Source: Melioribacteraceae bacterium (lineage in GTDB: Bacteria > Bacteroidota > Ignavibacteria > Ignavibacteriales > Melioribacteraceae). From it: a DNA stretch of 64,000 bases. Position numbers and translations under genes: made by a program. Below, piece by piece: positions 24,469-42,291 of the stretch (its first letter is position 1; every line of letters starts with the position of its first letter). The notes below the pieces were generated by a model. That model did no database searches and was not told where the DNA came from. It saw only the letters and a program-made list of their open reading frames with translations. The stretch covers positions 124,001 through 188,000 of the forward strand of contig JALVFE010000030.1 in assembly GCA_027030245.1 (NCBI GenBank), given 5' to 3'.

Positions 24469-26538
24469 ATGGCAAGAGATAATTCGGTATCAAATAAAAA
24501 AACGAAAGTTAAGTCAAAAAGTATTTCGGGAAAGATGAGAAACGAGGAATTAATTAACGGCTTAAAGACAATGATCCTTTCCCGTACGATAGATCATAAA
24601 GTGCTTACTTTACTGAAACAAGGCAAAGCGCATTTCATAATTGCCGGAGCGGGTCACGAAGCAACGCAAGTTGCGTTCGGCGAAGTTCTTAAACCCAAAC
24701 ACGATTGGGCGTATCCGTACTATCGCGATCAAGCCGTTCTGCTTGCACTCGGCGTAACTCCCGAAAATATTATGCTGGAAATGCTCGGCAAGGCGGACGA
24801 TCCGGCAAACGGCGGAAGGCAAATGCCGAATCATTGGGGCTCTAAGGAATTTAATATCCCATCGCAATCAAGTCCTACCGGAACCCAGTTTTTACAAGCT
24901 GTGGGAACCGCGATGGGATTTAAAAAAGAAAAAGACCCGCGGGTTGTTTACGTTAGCGCCGGAGAAGGAACCACAAGCCAAGGCGAATTTCACGAAGCCG
25001 TAAATTGGGCGGCAAGGGAAAAACTCCCGGTAATTTTCGTTATCCAAAATAACAAATGGGCAATTTCCGTTCCCGTGGAGCAACAAACCGCCGGCAAAAA
25101 TGCTTCTGTAATTGAAATGATGAAAGGTTACGAAAATCTTTTGAGATTAAGCGTTGACGGGACGGATTACATTAATATGAAAGAAGTAGCTCGCAAAGCT
25201 TACGATTATGCCGAAAGCGGTAAAGGTCCCGTTCTCGTCGAAGCTCACGTAGTGCGGTTGTTTTCGCATTCGTCTTCCGATGATCAAAAGAAATACCGTT
25301 CCAAAGAATCATTGGAAGAGGATTTGAAAAAAGACCCGATTGATAAACTTTCCAAATATTTATTGAAAGAAAAAATCCTTACGCAATCCGATATCGATAA
25401 AATTAAAGAAGAAATTCACGAAAGAGTTGAAAAAGTTGCCGAATGGGCTCTCGAGCAAGCCGAACCGGAACCCGAAACCGCAGTGAGATTTGTTTTCGAC
25501 GAAAGCGGATTGAAAGATAAACTGGAATATGAGAAAAGCGAGCCTTCCGGCAAAAAGGTTGTTATGGTCGATGCCATCAATCATGCGTTGCGTGAAGAGA
25601 TGGAGCGCAACGAAAAGATTTACGTGTTCGGAGAAGACGTTGCCGACGGAAAGGGCGGCGTGTTTACTGCTACGAAAGGTTTGTCCACTAAATTCGGAAA
25701 CGACCGTGTTTTTAATTCACCTTTGGCAGAAGCAAGTATCGAAGGTGTTGCTATCGGTATGGCGTTAACAGGCTTAAAACCGTGTGTGGAAATTCAGTTC
25801 GGCGATTATATTTGGCCTGCGTTTATGCAAATGAGAAACGAACTTGCCACTTACCGCTACCGTTCCAATAACGCTTGGGCGACTCCGGTTGTAACGCGTA
25901 CGGCAGTCGGCGGATTTATACACGGCGGTTTGTACCATAGTCAAAATATCGAAGGATTCTTTGCTCACATTCCCGGAATTTATATCGTTTATCCTTCGAA
26001 CGCAGCCGATGCAAAAGGATTACTGAAAACGGCATTAAGATTAAACGACCCCGTTTTATTTTTGGAACATAAAGGTTTATACAGACAAAGTTATGCTGCG
26101 TCACCCGAACCGGATGCCGATTATCTGCTTCCGTTCGGAAAAGCCAACATCGTTAGGGAAGGGGAAGATTTAACTGTTGTTACTTACGGCGCTATGGTTC
26201 ATGAAACAAATTTTGCGGCAAAGGAATTGGAAAATGAAGGTTACTCGATTGAAATTGTGGATATCAGAACTCTGATTCCGCTCGATGAAGAAACAATATT
26301 CAAATCGATTGAAAAAACCGGTAAAGTTGCCGTTGTGCACGAAGATACTTTAACTTCCGGATTCGGAGCGGAAATTGCAGCGAGAATTGCACAGAAATCT
26401 TTTGAATACTTGGACGGTCCGGTTAAAAGAATTTGTGCACGCGATGCTCACATTCCGTTTAACGATAATCTGGAAAAATTTGTACTTCCTACACGGAAGA
26501 GAATTTACACCGAACTTAAAGAACTACTTGCTTACTAA
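24469..26538 (+). CDS. 2-oxoacid dehydrogenase E1, alpha and beta subunits fused
   Basis: The 689-residue protein joins an alpha part (about 25-345) to a beta part (about 365-689). The alpha half has GHEATQVAFGEVL, YPYYRDQAVLLALG and a thiamine-diphosphate motif beginning AGEGTTSQGEFHEAVN and ending in NNKWAIS. The beta half has DAINHALREEMERN, FGEDVADGKGGVF and ATDYNP-free but normal E1-beta patterns such as PLAEASIEGVAIGMAL. GEG and the overall pattern fit branched-chain more than pyruvate E1, but substrate is inferred. Fused E1 is common in Bacteroidota-type genomes. It follows lipB by 26 bases and precedes E2 by 18. Confidence 0.9.
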   Translation: MARDNSVSNKKTKVKSKSISGKMRNEELINGLKTMILSRTIDHKVLTLLKQGKAHFIIAGAGHEATQVAFGEVLKPKHDWAYPYYRDQAVLLALGVTPENIMLEMLGKADDPANGGRQMPNHWGSKEFNIPSQSSPTGTQFLQAVGTAMGFKKEKDPRVVYVSAGEGTTSQGEFHEAVNWAAREKLPVIFVIQNNKWAISVPVEQQTAGKNASVIEMMKGYENLLRLSVDGTDYINMKEVARKAYDYAESGKGPVLVEAHVVRLFSHSSSDDQKKYRSKESLEEDLKKDPIDKLSKYLLKEKILTQSDIDKIKEEIHERVEKVAEWALEQAEPEPETAVRFVFDESGLKDKLEYEKSEPSGKKVVMVDAINHALREEMERNEKIYVFGEDVADGKGGVFTATKGLSTKFGNDRVFNSPLAEASIEGVAIGMALTGLKPCVEIQFGDYIWPAFMQMRNELATYRYRSNNAWATPVVTRTAVGGFIHGGLYHSQNIEGFFAHIPGIYIVYPSNAADAKGLLKTALRLNDPVLFLEHKGLYRQSYAASPEPDADYLLPFGKANIVREGEDLTVVTYGAMVHETNFAAKELENEGYSIEIVDIRTLIPLDEETIFKSIEKTGKVAVVHEDTLTSGFGAEIAARIAQKSFEYLDGPVKRICARDAHIPFNDNLEKFVLPTRKRIYTELKELLAY

Positions 26539-37181: not shown

Positions 37182-37832
37182 GTGGCTTTACCTAAAAATC
37201 CAAAAGTCGATTTGAAGCTGAAATATAGAAGAATGTTTGAAATCGGGCTTGTACTTTCATTACTTATTTTGATTTTCGCTTTTAAATATTTTCCCAGAGT
37301 GGAAGGCGAAAAGATGAAAATTGAAGCTCCGCAAGAATTGGTGGATGTGGAAGATATTGTAAATACAAAGCAAGAAACGGCACCTCCTCCGCCTCCGAAA
37401 CCTCCGATACCGATTGAAGCTCCCTCGGATGAAGTATTGGAAGATGTGGAATTAAGTGAAACTGAATTGGATGTTAACGAAGAAGTTGCCGCTCCTCCAC
37501 CGCCACCGGTAGAGGAAGAAGAAGTTGCTCCGCAGTTCTTTGTTGCGGTTGAGGAAATGCCGGAACCTATCGGTGGAATAGAGGCAATTCAAAAGCGGAT
37601 TGTTTATCCGGAAATTGCTAAAAGAGCAGGAGTTCAAGGTAGAGTTTTCGTAAAAGCTTTCGTTGATGAAAACGGTAACGTTATAAAAGCCGAAATTATT
37701 AAGGGTATCGGCGCAGGTTGCGATGAAGCTGCAATTAAAGCGGTAATGGCAACCAAATTTAAACCCGGAAGGCAAAGAGGCAAACCAGTGAAGGTTCAAG
37801 TTTCCATTCCGATTTTGTTTAAACTTAAGTAA
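37182..37832 (+). CDS. Energy-transducer TonB paralogue 1
   Basis: The 216-residue protein starts at GTG 37182 after AGGAGGAAAAA. One transmembrane helix at about 22-41 is followed by a Pro-rich periplasmic linker (PPPPPKPPIPIEAP, APPPPPVEEEE) and a C-terminal TonB domain (IVYPEIAKRAGVQGRVFVKA to KVQVSIPILFKL). It couples the proton-motive force to outer-membrane receptors such as the one at 13042-15912. It is followed by its own terminator and by a closely similar paralogue. Confidence 0.88.
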   Translation: MALPKNPKVDLKLKYRRMFEIGLVLSLLILIFAFKYFPRVEGEKMKIEAPQELVDVEDIVNTKQETAPPPPPKPPIPIEAPSDEVLEDVELSETELDVNEEVAAPPPPPVEEEEVAPQFFVAVEEMPEPIGGIEAIQKRIVYPEIAKRAGVQGRVFVKAFVDENGNVIKAEIIKGIGAGCDEAAIKAVMATKFKPGRQRGKPVKVQVSIPILFKLK

Positions 37833-38062: not shown

Positions 38063-38713
38063 ATGGCTCTACCTAAAACGCCTTCCGCGGATTTGAAGAA
38101 AAAATATCGGAAAACATTCGAGACCGGAATAATCATTTCGCTGGTTTTCGTTATTTTATCTTTCAAATATTTTCCGGAATACAAGTATGAACAAAATTCC
38201 GCGACAATTACACAGGAGCTTGTGAACGTTGAAGATGTAATTCTTACAAAGCTTGAGAAACAACCGCCACCGCCACCGAAACCGCCGATACCGGTTGAGG
38301 CTCCTACCGATGATTTAATAGATAATGTTCCGATAGAGCCGACCGAAATCGATTTTAAAACTCCGTTACCGCCACCACCACCTCCGCCGGAAGAAAAAGA
38401 TGACAATCTGTCGAAAATTTTTGTCAGTGTAGAACAACTTCCCCAACCGGTTGGAGGTATAGCGGCAATACAAAAGAAAATCATTTATCCCGAAATCGCA
38501 AAACGTGCGGGAGTGCAGGGCAGAGTTTTTGTAGAAGTCTTTGTCGATGAAAACGGTAATGTATTTGACGCAAAGATTGTAAAGGGAATTGGCGCCGGTT
38601 GCGACGAAGCAGCGTTGAAAGCCGTGCTCGCAACTAAATTTATTCCTGGCAAACAAAGAGACAAACCGGTTAAAGTAAAAATGACAATCCCGGTTGTATT
38701 TAAATTACGATAA
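38063..38713 (+). CDS. Energy-transducer TonB paralogue 2
   Basis: The 216-residue protein has exactly the same length and plan as its upstream neighbour: MALPKTP start, one helix at about 23-42, Pro-rich linker (PPPPPKPPIPVEAP, PLPPPPPPPEE) and TonB C-terminal domain (IIYPEIAKRAGVQGRVFVEV). The linkers differ most, which may tune partner or reach. It starts at ATG 38063 after TTTGGAGGTAAA and has its own terminator, so the two copies are independently transcribed products of a tandem duplication. Confidence 0.88.
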   Translation: MALPKTPSADLKKKYRKTFETGIIISLVFVILSFKYFPEYKYEQNSATITQELVNVEDVILTKLEKQPPPPPKPPIPVEAPTDDLIDNVPIEPTEIDFKTPLPPPPPPPEEKDDNLSKIFVSVEQLPQPVGGIAAIQKKIIYPEIAKRAGVQGRVFVEVFVDENGNVFDAKIVKGIGAGCDEAALKAVLATKFIPGKQRDKPVKVKMTIPVVFKLR

Positions 38714-38848: not shown

Positions 38849-39646
38849 ATGCCCTTGATAGAATTAAATAATGTTACTTATGCTTATGACGGAAATAAGA
38901 ACGGTAATTTTTTCCTTGGTGAAATAAATTTTTCCGTGGAAAAAGGTGAAGTAGTCTCCGTTTTCGGACCCAACGGCTCGGGTAAATCGACATTTCTGAA
39001 AATAATTTCTGGAATTCTTAAACCACGTTCCGGTACTGTTTTATTCGATAATAAAAACCTTAACTTGTATTCTCATAAAGAATTGGCAAAAAAAATTGCA
39101 TTTGTCCCGACGCTTACTTCTTCGGTATATCCTTTTTCCGTCTACGAAGTTGTAATGAGCGGAAGAACACCATATCTTAATTTTACCGGATTCGAAAAGA
39201 AAGAAGATCACGAAATTGTAGTAGAAGCATTAAAAACAGTTGAGATATACCATTTGCGCAACAAAGGGATTAACGAAGTTTCGGGTGGCGAAGCGCAACG
39301 GGCTTACATTGCAAGGGCATTGGCGCAAAAAACAGAAATGATTTTACTTGATGAACCGACCGCACATCTTGATTTGAAACATCAAGTGGCTGTAATGAAA
39401 TTACTGAAAAAATTGAACGAGCAACAAGGGAAAACCATAATTCTTGTTTCCCATGATTTGAACCTTGCGGGTAATTTCGGTGAACGCGCCATTTTAATGA
39501 AGAATGGTAAAATTGTTAAAGACGGAAACGCACAAGAAGTTTTAACCCAAACAAATATTAAATCGGTCTTTGAAGTAGAGGCGTTCGTAACGCATAAGAG
39601 TTTTAAAAACGAAACCCAGTTAAATATCCAGATAACATGTTTTTAG
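38849..39646 (+). CDS. ABC transporter ATP-binding protein, FecE/BtuD-like
   Basis: The 265-residue ATPase has Walker A FGPNGSGKST (Lys46), Q-loop region FVPTLTSSVYPFSV, signature VSGGEAQRA near 143 and Walker B ILLDEPTAHLD near 163. The pattern is that of iron-siderophore, heme or cobalamin importers. No permease or binding protein lies in the window, so its partner must be elsewhere. The 3' end overlaps the next gene by ten bases. Confidence 0.85.
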   Translation: MPLIELNNVTYAYDGNKNGNFFLGEINFSVEKGEVVSVFGPNGSGKSTFLKIISGILKPRSGTVLFDNKNLNLYSHKELAKKIAFVPTLTSSVYPFSVYEVVMSGRTPYLNFTGFEKKEDHEIVVEALKTVEIYHLRNKGINEVSGGEAQRAYIARALAQKTEMILLDEPTAHLDLKHQVAVMKLLKKLNEQQGKTIILVSHDLNLAGNFGERAILMKNGKIVKDGNAQEVLTQTNIKSVFEVEAFVTHKSFKNETQLNIQITCF

Positions 39647-40680
39647 AAAAAATATTCGGGAAATTATCCGGTTCGCACAAAATTTTAATCACAACTGTCG
39701 TTATTGCTGTTCTGGATTTGATATTTTTATATTTATTCAAATATGAATATAACAATTTCAGCTTATCGGAATTCAGTCTTAATAAATTTGGTAATCAATT
39801 AAATTTATTTATTACTGCGCTTTTTGTGCTACCAGCGTTATTTATATCTCCCAAAAAGGATGTTCCGGGTTGGGTTATTAACGCGGTGTTCTATTCATCA
39901 ATGGTATTTTTTTTCATTGATATATTTGCTTTTCTCCTTGCTTTATCCGGAGTTTCTTTCACCAACGGTTATTTATTCGGTTATCCTTTTAAAAAAATTC
40001 TTATTGTTGCGTTACTTGGAATAGGTTTAATTATCAAAGTATATCTTATTATTATTTTGTGGAAAATTCTGTTGGGTAAAAAATCAAACATATTTATCTC
40101 TTCGGCTCTATACACAACAGTTATAATAATTTTGGTGATTATTTTAACGTATATAAATAATTTGTTTTATCAACCTTTGGATTCCGCCGGATTGGAAAAC
40201 CGGAAATACGACGTGGCTGTTGTTCTTGGTGCAGCCGTATGGCAAAAAGACAAACCGAGTCCGATTTTTAAGGGTAGAATAGAAAAAGCTTTCGAGTTGC
40301 TTCGAAAGGGAATCGTAAAAAATATTCAGGTTACGGGCGGAAATGCTCCCGGTGAAATGAGCGAAGCAAAAACCGCATACAATTATTTATTGAAAAAGCA
40401 TAATATCGATAAAAAGCTTGTATTTATTGAGGAAGAAACAACAACAACATCCGAGCAAATAAGATTTATAAAAAGAAAATTAGTGGAAGAAAAAGGGCTT
40501 AAGAACATTTTAATCATTTCGGATAAATTCCATTTGAGAAGAGTATTGGAAATGTGCGATTTTTTTAATACAAATGCATATGGAATTTCTTCCGATTATG
40601 AATTAAATTGGAAGGAATTATTTTTGTATAGATTCCGGGACAGCATCGGAGTATTAATTTTCTGGCTTTTTGCTGTTTGA
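39637..40680 (+). CDS. DUF218 (YdcF/ElyC-like) membrane protein
   Basis: The 347-residue protein has five predicted transmembrane helices in its first 180 residues, followed by a DUF218 domain: YDVAVVLGAAVW, GRIEKAFELLRKG, IQVTGGN and FIEEETTTTSEQIRF, ending with ILIISDKFHLRRVLEM. Relatives such as ElyC and SanA affect envelope integrity; a biochemical activity is not settled. It overlaps the ABC ATPase gene and is probably co-transcribed with it. Confidence 0.8.
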   Translation: MFLEKIFGKLSGSHKILITTVVIAVLDLIFLYLFKYEYNNFSLSEFSLNKFGNQLNLFITALFVLPALFISPKKDVPGWVINAVFYSSMVFFFIDIFAFLLALSGVSFTNGYLFGYPFKKILIVALLGIGLIIKVYLIIILWKILLGKKSNIFISSALYTTVIIILVIILTYINNLFYQPLDSAGLENRKYDVAVVLGAAVWQKDKPSPIFKGRIEKAFELLRKGIVKNIQVTGGNAPGEMSEAKTAYNYLLKKHNIDKKLVFIEEETTTTSEQIRFIKRKLVEEKGLKNILIISDKFHLRRVLEMCDFFNTNAYGISSDYELNWKELFLYRFRDSIGVLIFWLFAV

Positions 40681-40713: not shown

Positions 40714-41790
40714 ATGAGAGATTTTGATATTCTGGAAAAATTCGGTCACGAACAGATAATTTACTGTTCAGATAAAGAAGCCGGATTACGCGCGATAATT
40801 GCTATTCACGATACTACATTGGGTCCGGCGATAGGCGGAACGAGGATGTGGAACTATAAATCGGTTGAGGAAGCATTAATCGATGTTTTAAGGCTTTCAC
40901 GGGGCATGACCTACAAAGCGGCAGTTTCGGGATTAAATCTCGGAGGCGGTCAAGCCGTGATTATCGGAGATTCCCAAAAAGATAAAAGCGAATTGCTGTT
41001 CAGAACATTCGGAAAATTCGTTGATGGTTTGGGAGGAAGGTATATAACGGCCGAGGATTTGGGAACCGACGTAAAAGATATGGAATTCGTACGGATGGAA
41101 ACAAAACACGTGACCGGAATTTCGCGCGCTCTCGGCGGTTCGGGCGATCCTGCGCCGGTATCCGCTTACGGTGTGTATCTCGGTATGAAAGCTTGTGCAA
41201 AGGTTCGCTGGGGAAACGATTCTCTTGAAAATAAAAAAATTGTTTTACAAGGAGCGGGACACGTAGCGCGTTATTTGGCGGAACATCTGCATAACGAGGG
41301 AGCAATACTTTTCATTGCGGATATAATTCCGGAAAGAGCCGAAAAACTTGCCGGAACTGTTCGCGCTGATGTAGTGCATCCTTCGGAAGTTTACGATTTC
41401 GAGGGAGATATTTTTGCTCCGAGCGCTCTCGGAGGAATTTTGAACGACGAAACCATTCCGAAACTTAAATATAAAATTGTTGCCGGCGCGGCAAATAATC
41501 AACTTGAAGACGAAGATAAACATGGAAAGATGTTGATGGATAAAGGCATTCTTTATGCGCCCGATTATGTAATTAACGCCGGAGGATTGATAAATGTGGC
41601 AAACGAACTTGAAGGCTACAGGCAAGACAGGGCTCTTAAACGTGCGGAAGGAATTTACGACATAATAATGAAAGTGCTTAAAACCTCTCAGGAGGAAAAT
41701 ATTCCTACAAATAAAGCCTCGGATATGCTTGCGGAAGAACGGTTGAATAAAATTGGCAGAATAAAAACGATTTTTTCATCGGGGAAATAA
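40714..41790 (+). CDS. Leucine/valine dehydrogenase family protein with Gln at the catalytic Lys80
   Basis: The 358-residue protein starts at ATG 40714 after GGGAGAAATTATA. It matches Glu/Leu/Phe/Val dehydrogenases along its whole length. In Bacillus leucine-dehydrogenase numbering it keeps the substrate Lys68 (GMTYK), Asp115 (ITAEDLGT) and the NAD loop GAGHVA. However, the catalytic lysine of GLNLGGGK is Gln80 (CAA at 40951-40953). Leucine dehydrogenase makes branched 2-oxoacids for the dehydrogenase complex at 22-28 kb. The substitution makes activity doubtful. It leads directly into nusB with a 9-base gap. Confidence 0.85.
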   Translation: MRDFDILEKFGHEQIIYCSDKEAGLRAIIAIHDTTLGPAIGGTRMWNYKSVEEALIDVLRLSRGMTYKAAVSGLNLGGGQAVIIGDSQKDKSELLFRTFGKFVDGLGGRYITAEDLGTDVKDMEFVRMETKHVTGISRALGGSGDPAPVSAYGVYLGMKACAKVRWGNDSLENKKIVLQGAGHVARYLAEHLHNEGAILFIADIIPERAEKLAGTVRADVVHPSEVYDFEGDIFAPSALGGILNDETIPKLKYKIVAGAANNQLEDEDKHGKMLMDKGILYAPDYVINAGGLINVANELEGYRQDRALKRAEGIYDIIMKVLKTSQEENIPTNKASDMLAEERLNKIGRIKTIFSSGK

Positions 41791-41799
41791 GAGATTAAA

Positions 41800-42291
41800 A
41801 TGATATTTGAAAAACCCAGGAAATCCCGGCGAAGAATTTTAAGAGAAAAAGCGCTGCAAATTCTGTACGGCAATGAGCTGAATAAGGAAAATTTGGATAC
41901 CACAATTAAACAAGTATTGGGAGACGTCAATTTTTCGGATAGGGAATTTAGCTTGAAATTGGTAAACAGTGTTATTGAAAATCAAAAAGAACTTGAAAAT
42001 TTAATAGTTAAAAAATTATCTAATTGGGAATTGGAACGTATTGCATTGATAGACAGATTGCTGTTGAGATTAGGTATTGCAGAAATGTTATTTTTTCCCG
42101 AAATTCCTCCTAAGGTTACGATGAACGAAATGATAGAAATTGCCAAGGAGTATAGCACGGCAAAAAGCGGAAAGTTTATTAACGGTATTTTAGATGCTAT
42201 CTTAAACGATTTGAAAAAATCTAACAAACTTAAAAAATCGGGCAGGGGACTGATTGAGCAATCCTTCCACAAAAAATCTTCCGGAGAATAA
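41800..42291 (+). CDS. nusB: Transcription antitermination factor NusB
   Basis: The 163-residue protein has the NusB helical pattern: SRRRILREKALQILYG at the start, then NWELERIALIDRLLLRLGIAEML, and NEMIEIAKEYSTAKSGKFINGILDAIL at its core (shown here in parts only). NusB binds boxA RNA with NusE for rRNA antitermination. The C-terminal tail is basic and slightly long. The end overlaps the following MFS gene by 38 bases. Confidence 0.9.
   Translation: MIFEKPRKSRRRILREKALQILYGNELNKENLDTTIKQVLGDVNFSDREFSLKLVNSVIENQKELENLIVKKLSNWELERIALIDRLLLRLGIAEMLFFPEIPPKVTMNEMIEIAKEYSTAKSGKFINGILDAILNDLKKSNKLKKSGRGLIEQSFHKKSSGE

Follow-up and report, generated by a model that had tools for sequence, protein, structure and literature searches.

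A leucine dehydrogenase homologue encoded beside nusB has glutamine at the position of the catalytic lysine, a residue lost recurrently in two bacterial families

The lysine at position 80 of leucine dehydrogenase (LeuDH) is described as activating the water molecule that attacks the iminium ion, and as helping to hold the carboxylate group of the substrate (PMC6033044). Its replacement in the laboratory is reported to be costly. For the K80Q enzyme the account in PMC6033044 gives a Km of 25 mM for ketoisocaproate compared with 0.9 mM, and of 17 mM for leucine compared with 5.1 mM. Deamination by a Lys80 mutant is put at 1.5% of that of the wild type, or 20% in the presence of 1 M ammonia, with K80Q rescued by ammonia to a lesser extent than K80A (PMC12018205). 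The engineering of amine dehydrogenases is said to have had to retain Lys80, and in imine reductases Asp, Tyr or Asn is reported at the site of the catalytic lysine of hydroxyisobutyrate dehydrogenases (PMC6033044). Because the laboratory mutants are impaired, Gln80 should leave a Bacillus-like enzyme poorly able to deaminate leucine. Lys80 is treated as essential in the amino-acid dehydrogenases, and proteins that have lost it in nature provide ready-made test cases for a change in chemistry. Our search of the non-subscription literature, covering titles and the openings of abstracts, found no report of a natural loss of Lys80 in LeuDH, which is not proof that it is unreported.

We have analyzed a protein of this kind encoded in a 64,000-nucleotide stretch of a Melioribacteraceae genome, referred to below as the window. 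The gene runs from an ATG at 40714 to 41790 on the forward strand and encodes 358 amino acids; in the open reading frame listing it begins at a TTG (40696) and is six amino acids longer. Numbered from the ATG, codon 80 (40951-40953, forward strand) is CAA, and thus Gln, where the general-base lysine of the GGGK motif is expected. The codons for Lys68 (40915-40917), which holds the substrate carboxylate, and Asp115 (41056-41058), which holds the substrate amine, are both retained on the same strand. Also retained is the sequence GAGHVA (41251-41268, forward strand), containing Gly180 and Gly182, which we take to be the dinucleotide-binding motif. In the alignment Gly180, Gly182 and Asp203 are all present, and these presumably form part of the NAD site.

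The assignment of the protein rests on the open reading frame, on profile and pairwise searches, and on a structural model. It scores above the cut-offs of both PF02812 (98.2 bits, cut-off 25.3) and PF00208 (57.3 bits, cut-off 23.4), and its best matches among solved structures are LeuDHs of the Bacillus type (6acf, 454 bits and 57% identity; 1leh, 423 bits). The phmmer alignment with 6acf is free of gaps from residue 3 to approximately residue 265, matching Lys68 and Asp115 and placing Gln opposite the GGGK lysine. An AF2 model based on 71 aligned orthologues has a mean pLDDT of 92.8 and a pTM of 0.87. On structural re-alignment of this model the first eight entries were all LeuDHs, with Z = 52.7 and an rmsd of 1.8 for 8gxd, and Z = 50.5 and an rmsd of 2.3 over 355 aligned residues for 1leh. 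The models NF035922 (the tryptophan dehydrogenase ScyB) and NF040817 (glutamate dehydrogenase) gave 415.5 and 71.7 bits, under their curated cut-offs of 600 and 750, respectively. The reading of the codon and the gapless alignment at Lys68 and Asp115 confirm what the initial annotation had proposed, i.e., that the gene encodes an intact LeuDH homologue with Gln80 in which Lys68 and Asp115 are kept. A protein search of the window's genome at an E value of 0.001 matched this gene alone, ruling out a recent paralogue beside an intact copy. Two more PF02812 genes of that genome, on contig C16, look glutamate-dehydrogenase-like by length and score.

The gene is followed by nusB (41800-42291, forward strand; PF01029), which starts nine bases after its stop codon, as close as the initial annotation had described, and is preceded by a gene for a DUF218 membrane protein (39637-40680, forward strand; PF02698). 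The downstream neighbor is conserved. Within the order, 43 of the 44 loci have it on the same strand; beyond the order it was found at 23 of 44 loci (flavobacterial loci included), and a second family described below has it in all 30 loci checked, with 0.58-0.74 kb between the matched spans. In the other 21 loci outside the order, most of which show only about 1.5-3 kb downstream, nusB was not found, so that not all of the phylum shows the linkage. The DUF218 gene is upstream in 39/44 loci of the order and 2/44 outside it. Since the same nusB neighborhood surrounds genes with and without Lys80, the lysine was lost in place and not in a spare copy. Horizontal replacement is likewise not favored, as the gene occupies the same neighborhood as its Lys80 relatives. 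The window also contains two adjacent and similar open frames of 216 residues (37182-37832 and 38063-38713), which seem to have arisen by tandem duplication; the first of them has a match to the TonB C-terminal domain, and the loci L003, L004, L011 and L072 of relatives have a single copy at this place.

We have aligned family members at residue 80. Among 79 genomes of the Melioribacteraceae we found 35 full-length orthologues, two copies cut by a contig edge and one remnant. Residue 80 can be read in 36 of these genomes, and is Lys in 20 and a different residue in 16 (Asn in 10, the partial copy L050 included, Gln in four, Ser in one and Thr in one). Gln80 is found in all four genomes of the genus, encoded by CAA each time, in proteins of 73-100% identity; one of the four is a separately deposited Melioribacteraceae assembly (L002, JALSTB010000114.1). 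For the order we searched 164 genomes, and 59 gave matches at an E value of 1e-40, paralogues counted. For the phylum 395 genomes were searched, of which 154 matched, and 112 of these were read before the search of the second family. This family, of the same phylum, was entered because Tyr80 appeared; 133 of its 151 genomes matched, and 69 distinct rows were read, taken from the top 30 matches of a Tyr80 query and from 40 places chosen across genera. Removal of identical sequences reduced a total of 228 loci to 212 distinct rows. Matches below 44% identity or with fewer than 250 aligned residues were left out (the paralogues L052-L062 and the partial copies L050, with Asn80, L051 and L063), as was the Lys80 row L010, for a stop codon later placed at its end.

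Lys80 is absent from 44 of the 212 distinct orthologues. The residue is Lys in 168, Asn in 17, Gln, Ser and Tyr in seven each, Thr in three, and Ala, Gly and Cys in one each. The 44 rows are confined to two families, with 15 of 34 rows in the Melioribacteraceae and 29 of 69 in the second family, where the sample was a chosen one and the fraction is not an estimate of frequency. All 109 distinct orthologues outside those families have Lys80. The replacements are small or polar, or else tyrosine, and among the 44 non-Lys80 rows there is no acidic or basic residue. The loss of Lys80 that the initial annotation had treated as a single oddity is therefore real but not singular, being a recurrent loss in place in two families.

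How often has the lysine been lost? We built a tree of the 212 rows without columns 40 and 80. The best tree requires 13 changes between Lys and non-Lys, of which at least five are forced by well-supported branches; 67 of its 209 inner branches are weakly supported, so that 13 is not a firm count, and parsimony permits some regains of Lys too. A tree in which the non-Lys80 rows form one clade was rejected, with a log-likelihood lower by 675 and p-AU = 0.019 for a group that was defined after the rows had been seen, and a single origin can be set aside. The repeated loss of Lys80 from a protein that is otherwise kept suggests a changed job and not a broken gene.

The non-Lys80 gene is well maintained. 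By the NG86 method dN/dS is 0.027-0.086 for measurable non-Lys80 pairs and 0.007-0.057 for Lys80 pairs; one of the two sets of comparisons used only pairs of more than 85% identity, and saturation left several pairs without a value. Two measurable pairs within the genus gave 0.038 and 0.064, the other genus pairs being saturated. With the open frame whole, these values agree with the earlier view that the rest of the protein is intact and that the gene is not an evident pseudogene. No in-frame stop codon in the rows is more than four codons from the end; they fall at residue 352 in proteins of 354-355 and, in the omitted row L010, at residue 300 of 303. Lys68 is present in all 212 distinct rows, and together with Asp115, Asn261, Gly180, Gly182 and Asp203 it is invariant in the 44 rows that lack Lys80. 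Column 80 itself holds eight residue types in these 44 rows, ranking 38 of 358 in diversity. Judged by these codon comparisons, the data show that purifying selection maintains the non-Lys80 gene.

Maintenance does not mean that every genome has the gene. There is no intact or contig-edge copy in 42/79 Melioribacteraceae genomes (the genome with the remnant counted), and 18/151 genomes of the second family have no match. As it is absent from part of both families, the gene is useful but not essential, and can be dispensed with. In one lineage it has decayed, leaving a remnant beside nusB (L063:1636-2045) from which approximately residues 44-252 are missing. Another Melioribacteraceae genome contains a relative of 30% identity (L062:759-1742) with Arg, Ser and Ser at positions 68, 80 and 115, which is likely, from these residues, to be a catalytically dead member. 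The other catalytic position, 115, is Asp in 155 and Glu in 13 of the 168 Lys80 rows. The Glu115 rows all belong to the second family (L199, L228, L230, L231, L233-L236, L247, L255, L256, L258 and L261), and none of the 44 non-Lys80 rows has Glu115; all have Asp115, which is thus kept more strictly than in the Lys80 rows.

Has the substrate pocket changed along with residue 80? Several positions in the LeuDH pocket are known to set substrate specificity, and Table 1 of the same source gives position 40 as lining the pocket and position 150 as lying within 6 Å of the substrate (PMC8766677). So that no position was picked by eye, our pocket set comprises the positions of that table (PMC8766677) other than Lys68 and Asp115, numbered one higher past a single-residue insertion near 266; 20 of the 27 are conserved in the 109 reference rows. 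At pocket columns the mean departure from the reference residue is 18.9% in non-Lys80 rows, whereas it is 5.3% in those rows of the two families that have Lys80. The corresponding values at the other conserved columns are 10.1% and 8.3%. The first test of the pocket ignored kinship and some of its results were weak, with an overlap of 5/15 for the top 15 columns (p = 0.0496) and, for Melioribacteraceae rows alone, a trend only (rank test, p = 0.069). For these reasons a simulation of label histories on the tree was added, with numbers of rows and changes similar to those observed. None of 1000 simulated histories reached the observed pocket excess of 0.118 (simulated mean 0.019, sd 0.032). Given also that the other columns have hardly changed, the excess is specific to the active site and not a result of kinship alone. 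Both in the Lys80 and in the non-Lys80 rows, the columns of greatest divergence include several that are not part of the pocket.

The window protein has Ile40 (codon 40831-40833) and Ser150 (codon 41161-41163, both on the forward strand) in its pocket. The usual residue at position 40 is Leu (150/168 Lys80 rows), and Ile or Phe is found in 30/44 non-Lys80 rows compared with 13/168 Lys80 rows. At position 150, where Thr is usual (165/168), Ala or Ser is found in 24/44 compared with 3/168. Tested by independent pairs, of which five were usable, the association of positions 40 and 150 with loss of Lys80 was not significant. The Tyr80 proteins L205-L209 and L212 share a joint pocket set of Phe40, Ser42, Ser113 and Ala150. 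The remodeling of the pocket could alternatively reflect a relaxation of constraint, the protein binding its ligand without turnover.

We have also considered the metabolic context. Between 22363 and 28095 the window encodes dihydrolipoyl dehydrogenase, lipB, a fused E1 alpha-beta (24469-26538) and an E2 with lipoyl domains, a 2-oxoacid dehydrogenase complex for which pyruvate or branched-chain keto acids are candidate substrates. A match to PF00676 (E1), mostly in a frame near 700 amino acids, is present in 72/79 genomes of the family, with or without the LeuDH-like gene. A lost oxidation of branched-chain keto acids is consequently not supported as the cause, the E1 substrate being either pyruvate or branched-chain keto acids. 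All four genus genomes have matches to the aminotransferase model TIGR01122, each under the cut-off of that model. The aminotransferase of the window's genome exceeds the cut-offs of the type II branched-chain models TIGR01123 and NF009897, so that LeuDH is probably not required for the interconversion of leucine and its keto acid.

What might the protein do? The initial annotation had offered an inactive protein, a regulatory one or a changed reaction. Remodeling of the pocket together with strict retention of the ligand anchors leads us to lean toward a changed reaction or substrate. On the alignments, the kept anchors for amino acid and NAD and the recut pocket speak against a dead protein; they also favor, though less strongly, a change of substrate or reaction. 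The explanation we prefer, tentatively and with a little less than even confidence, is that the protein is a maintained LeuDH orthologue that would still bind NAD and an amino acid, with rewired chemistry or substrate. The general base Lys80 of a LeuDH orthologue beside nusB has been swapped in place for Gln. On this explanation the protein would still fold and bind NAD, and an alpha-amino or alpha-imino acid would be held by its carboxylate (Lys68) and its nitrogen (Asp115). Efficient activation of water at the iminium stage would be lost, and the physiological reaction would no longer be the ordinary deamination of leucine. Hydride transfer may proceed with Asp115 as the main acid/base, water activation being either unneeded or not limiting, on a substrate that would fit the pocket reshaped by Ile40 and Ser150.

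As column 80 holds N, Q, S, T, Y, A, G and C, one new catalytic residue cannot explain all cases, and the Lys80-free proteins may have a single new function in common or several different ones. We regard as improbable a more specific proposal, that several lineages independently turned the nusB-linked LeuDH into an enzyme acting only at the C=N stage. Such an enzyme would be an imino-acid reductase, or an amino-acid oxidizer that releases the imine; the water-handling lysine would have been dropped, Asp115 and Lys68 kept as holders of the amino or imino acid, and the pocket recut. The change would resemble the one from Lys to Asn, Asp or Tyr that separates imine reductases from hydroxyisobutyrate dehydrogenases.

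Among the alternatives, a non-catalytic sensor or partner is doubtful but survives best. It would bind a leucine-like ligand and NAD(H), and act through contact with another protein. Bacillus RocG acts by protein contact in addition to catalysis. A sensor would accord with the absence of the catalytic base, whose position is taken by one or other of eight small or polar residues, with the retention of ligand anchors and scaffold, and with the purifying selection on the gene. It accords less well with change that is concentrated in the pocket, specificity-setting positions included, where sensing of the old ligand would require no change, and the adjacent genes examined include none that is evidently a partner or regulator.

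We think it unlikely that the protein is still a working LeuDH, with another residue or an ordered water standing in for Lys80 and a substitution that is nearly neutral in this background. The conservation of Asp115 in 44/44 non-Lys80 rows, although Glu is found there in 13/168 Lys80 rows, is what might be expected of a working enzyme. So is a dN/dS similar to that of the Lys80 rows, and the 2-oxoacid dehydrogenase complex of the window, with pyruvate or a branched-chain keto acid as substrate, could take the product. However, the described Lys80 mutants of characterized LeuDH are impaired (PMC12018205, PMC6033044), Lys80 is found in 109/109 rows outside the two families, and the list of the 25 conserved columns that diverged most contains none at which many non-Lys80 rows have gained Lys or His.

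Early decay, in which an enzyme no longer needed lost its base and its gene is now heading for deletion, seems to us very improbable. The gene is absent from some genomes of both families, all that is left of it in the L063 genome (Melioribacteraceae) is an internally deleted remnant next to nusB, and for the same interconversion there is a branched-chain aminotransferase in the window's genome; but low dN/dS, intact frames in the counted rows, strictly conserved anchors, and change concentrated in the pocket rather than spread over the protein are not the marks of decay. The read error that the initial annotation had named as a possible refutation has a negligible chance of being correct, for although the genomes are draft assemblies, a sequencing or assembly error is ruled out by the identical CAA codon in 4/4 genus genomes.

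Automatic annotation may wrongly label Lys80-free proteins as leucine dehydrogenase, and such proteins could be starting points for imine-reducing biocatalysts.

The closest known systems are the Bacillus-type LeuDHs (EC 1.4.1.9; 1leh, 6acf, 3vpx, 8hpe and 8gxd), with 53-57% identity over 352-355 residues and Z values of 49-53. The window protein has Lys68, Asp115 and the NAD site in common with them, and differs in having Gln for Lys80, together with Ile40 and Ser150 in the pocket. The laboratory mutants K80A, K80Q and K80R (Sekimoto 1993, as cited in PMC12018205 and PMC6033044) are altered at the same residue, and K80Q has the same substitution. As described there, the mutants carry one impairing change, whereas the natural proteins carry theirs by descent, with further changes in the pocket. 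The tryptophan dehydrogenase ScyB (5b37; NF035922) belongs to the same family, but the window protein, at 415.5 bits, lies under the 600-bit cut-off for that group. A longer amino-acid dehydrogenase paralogue occurs in some genomes of the family (L052-L061, frames of 415-468 amino acids; the L055 copy has an internal stop codon). It is of the ELFV type, has Lys68, Lys80 and Asp115, and is 36-41% identical to the LeuDH-like protein. The imine reductases, as described in PMC6033044, present a parallel exchange of the catalytic lysine relative to the hydroxyisobutyrate dehydrogenases, but their fold and family are different and the likeness is one of analogy only. As an analogy, the parallel is made attractive by the Tyr80 and Asn80 found here.
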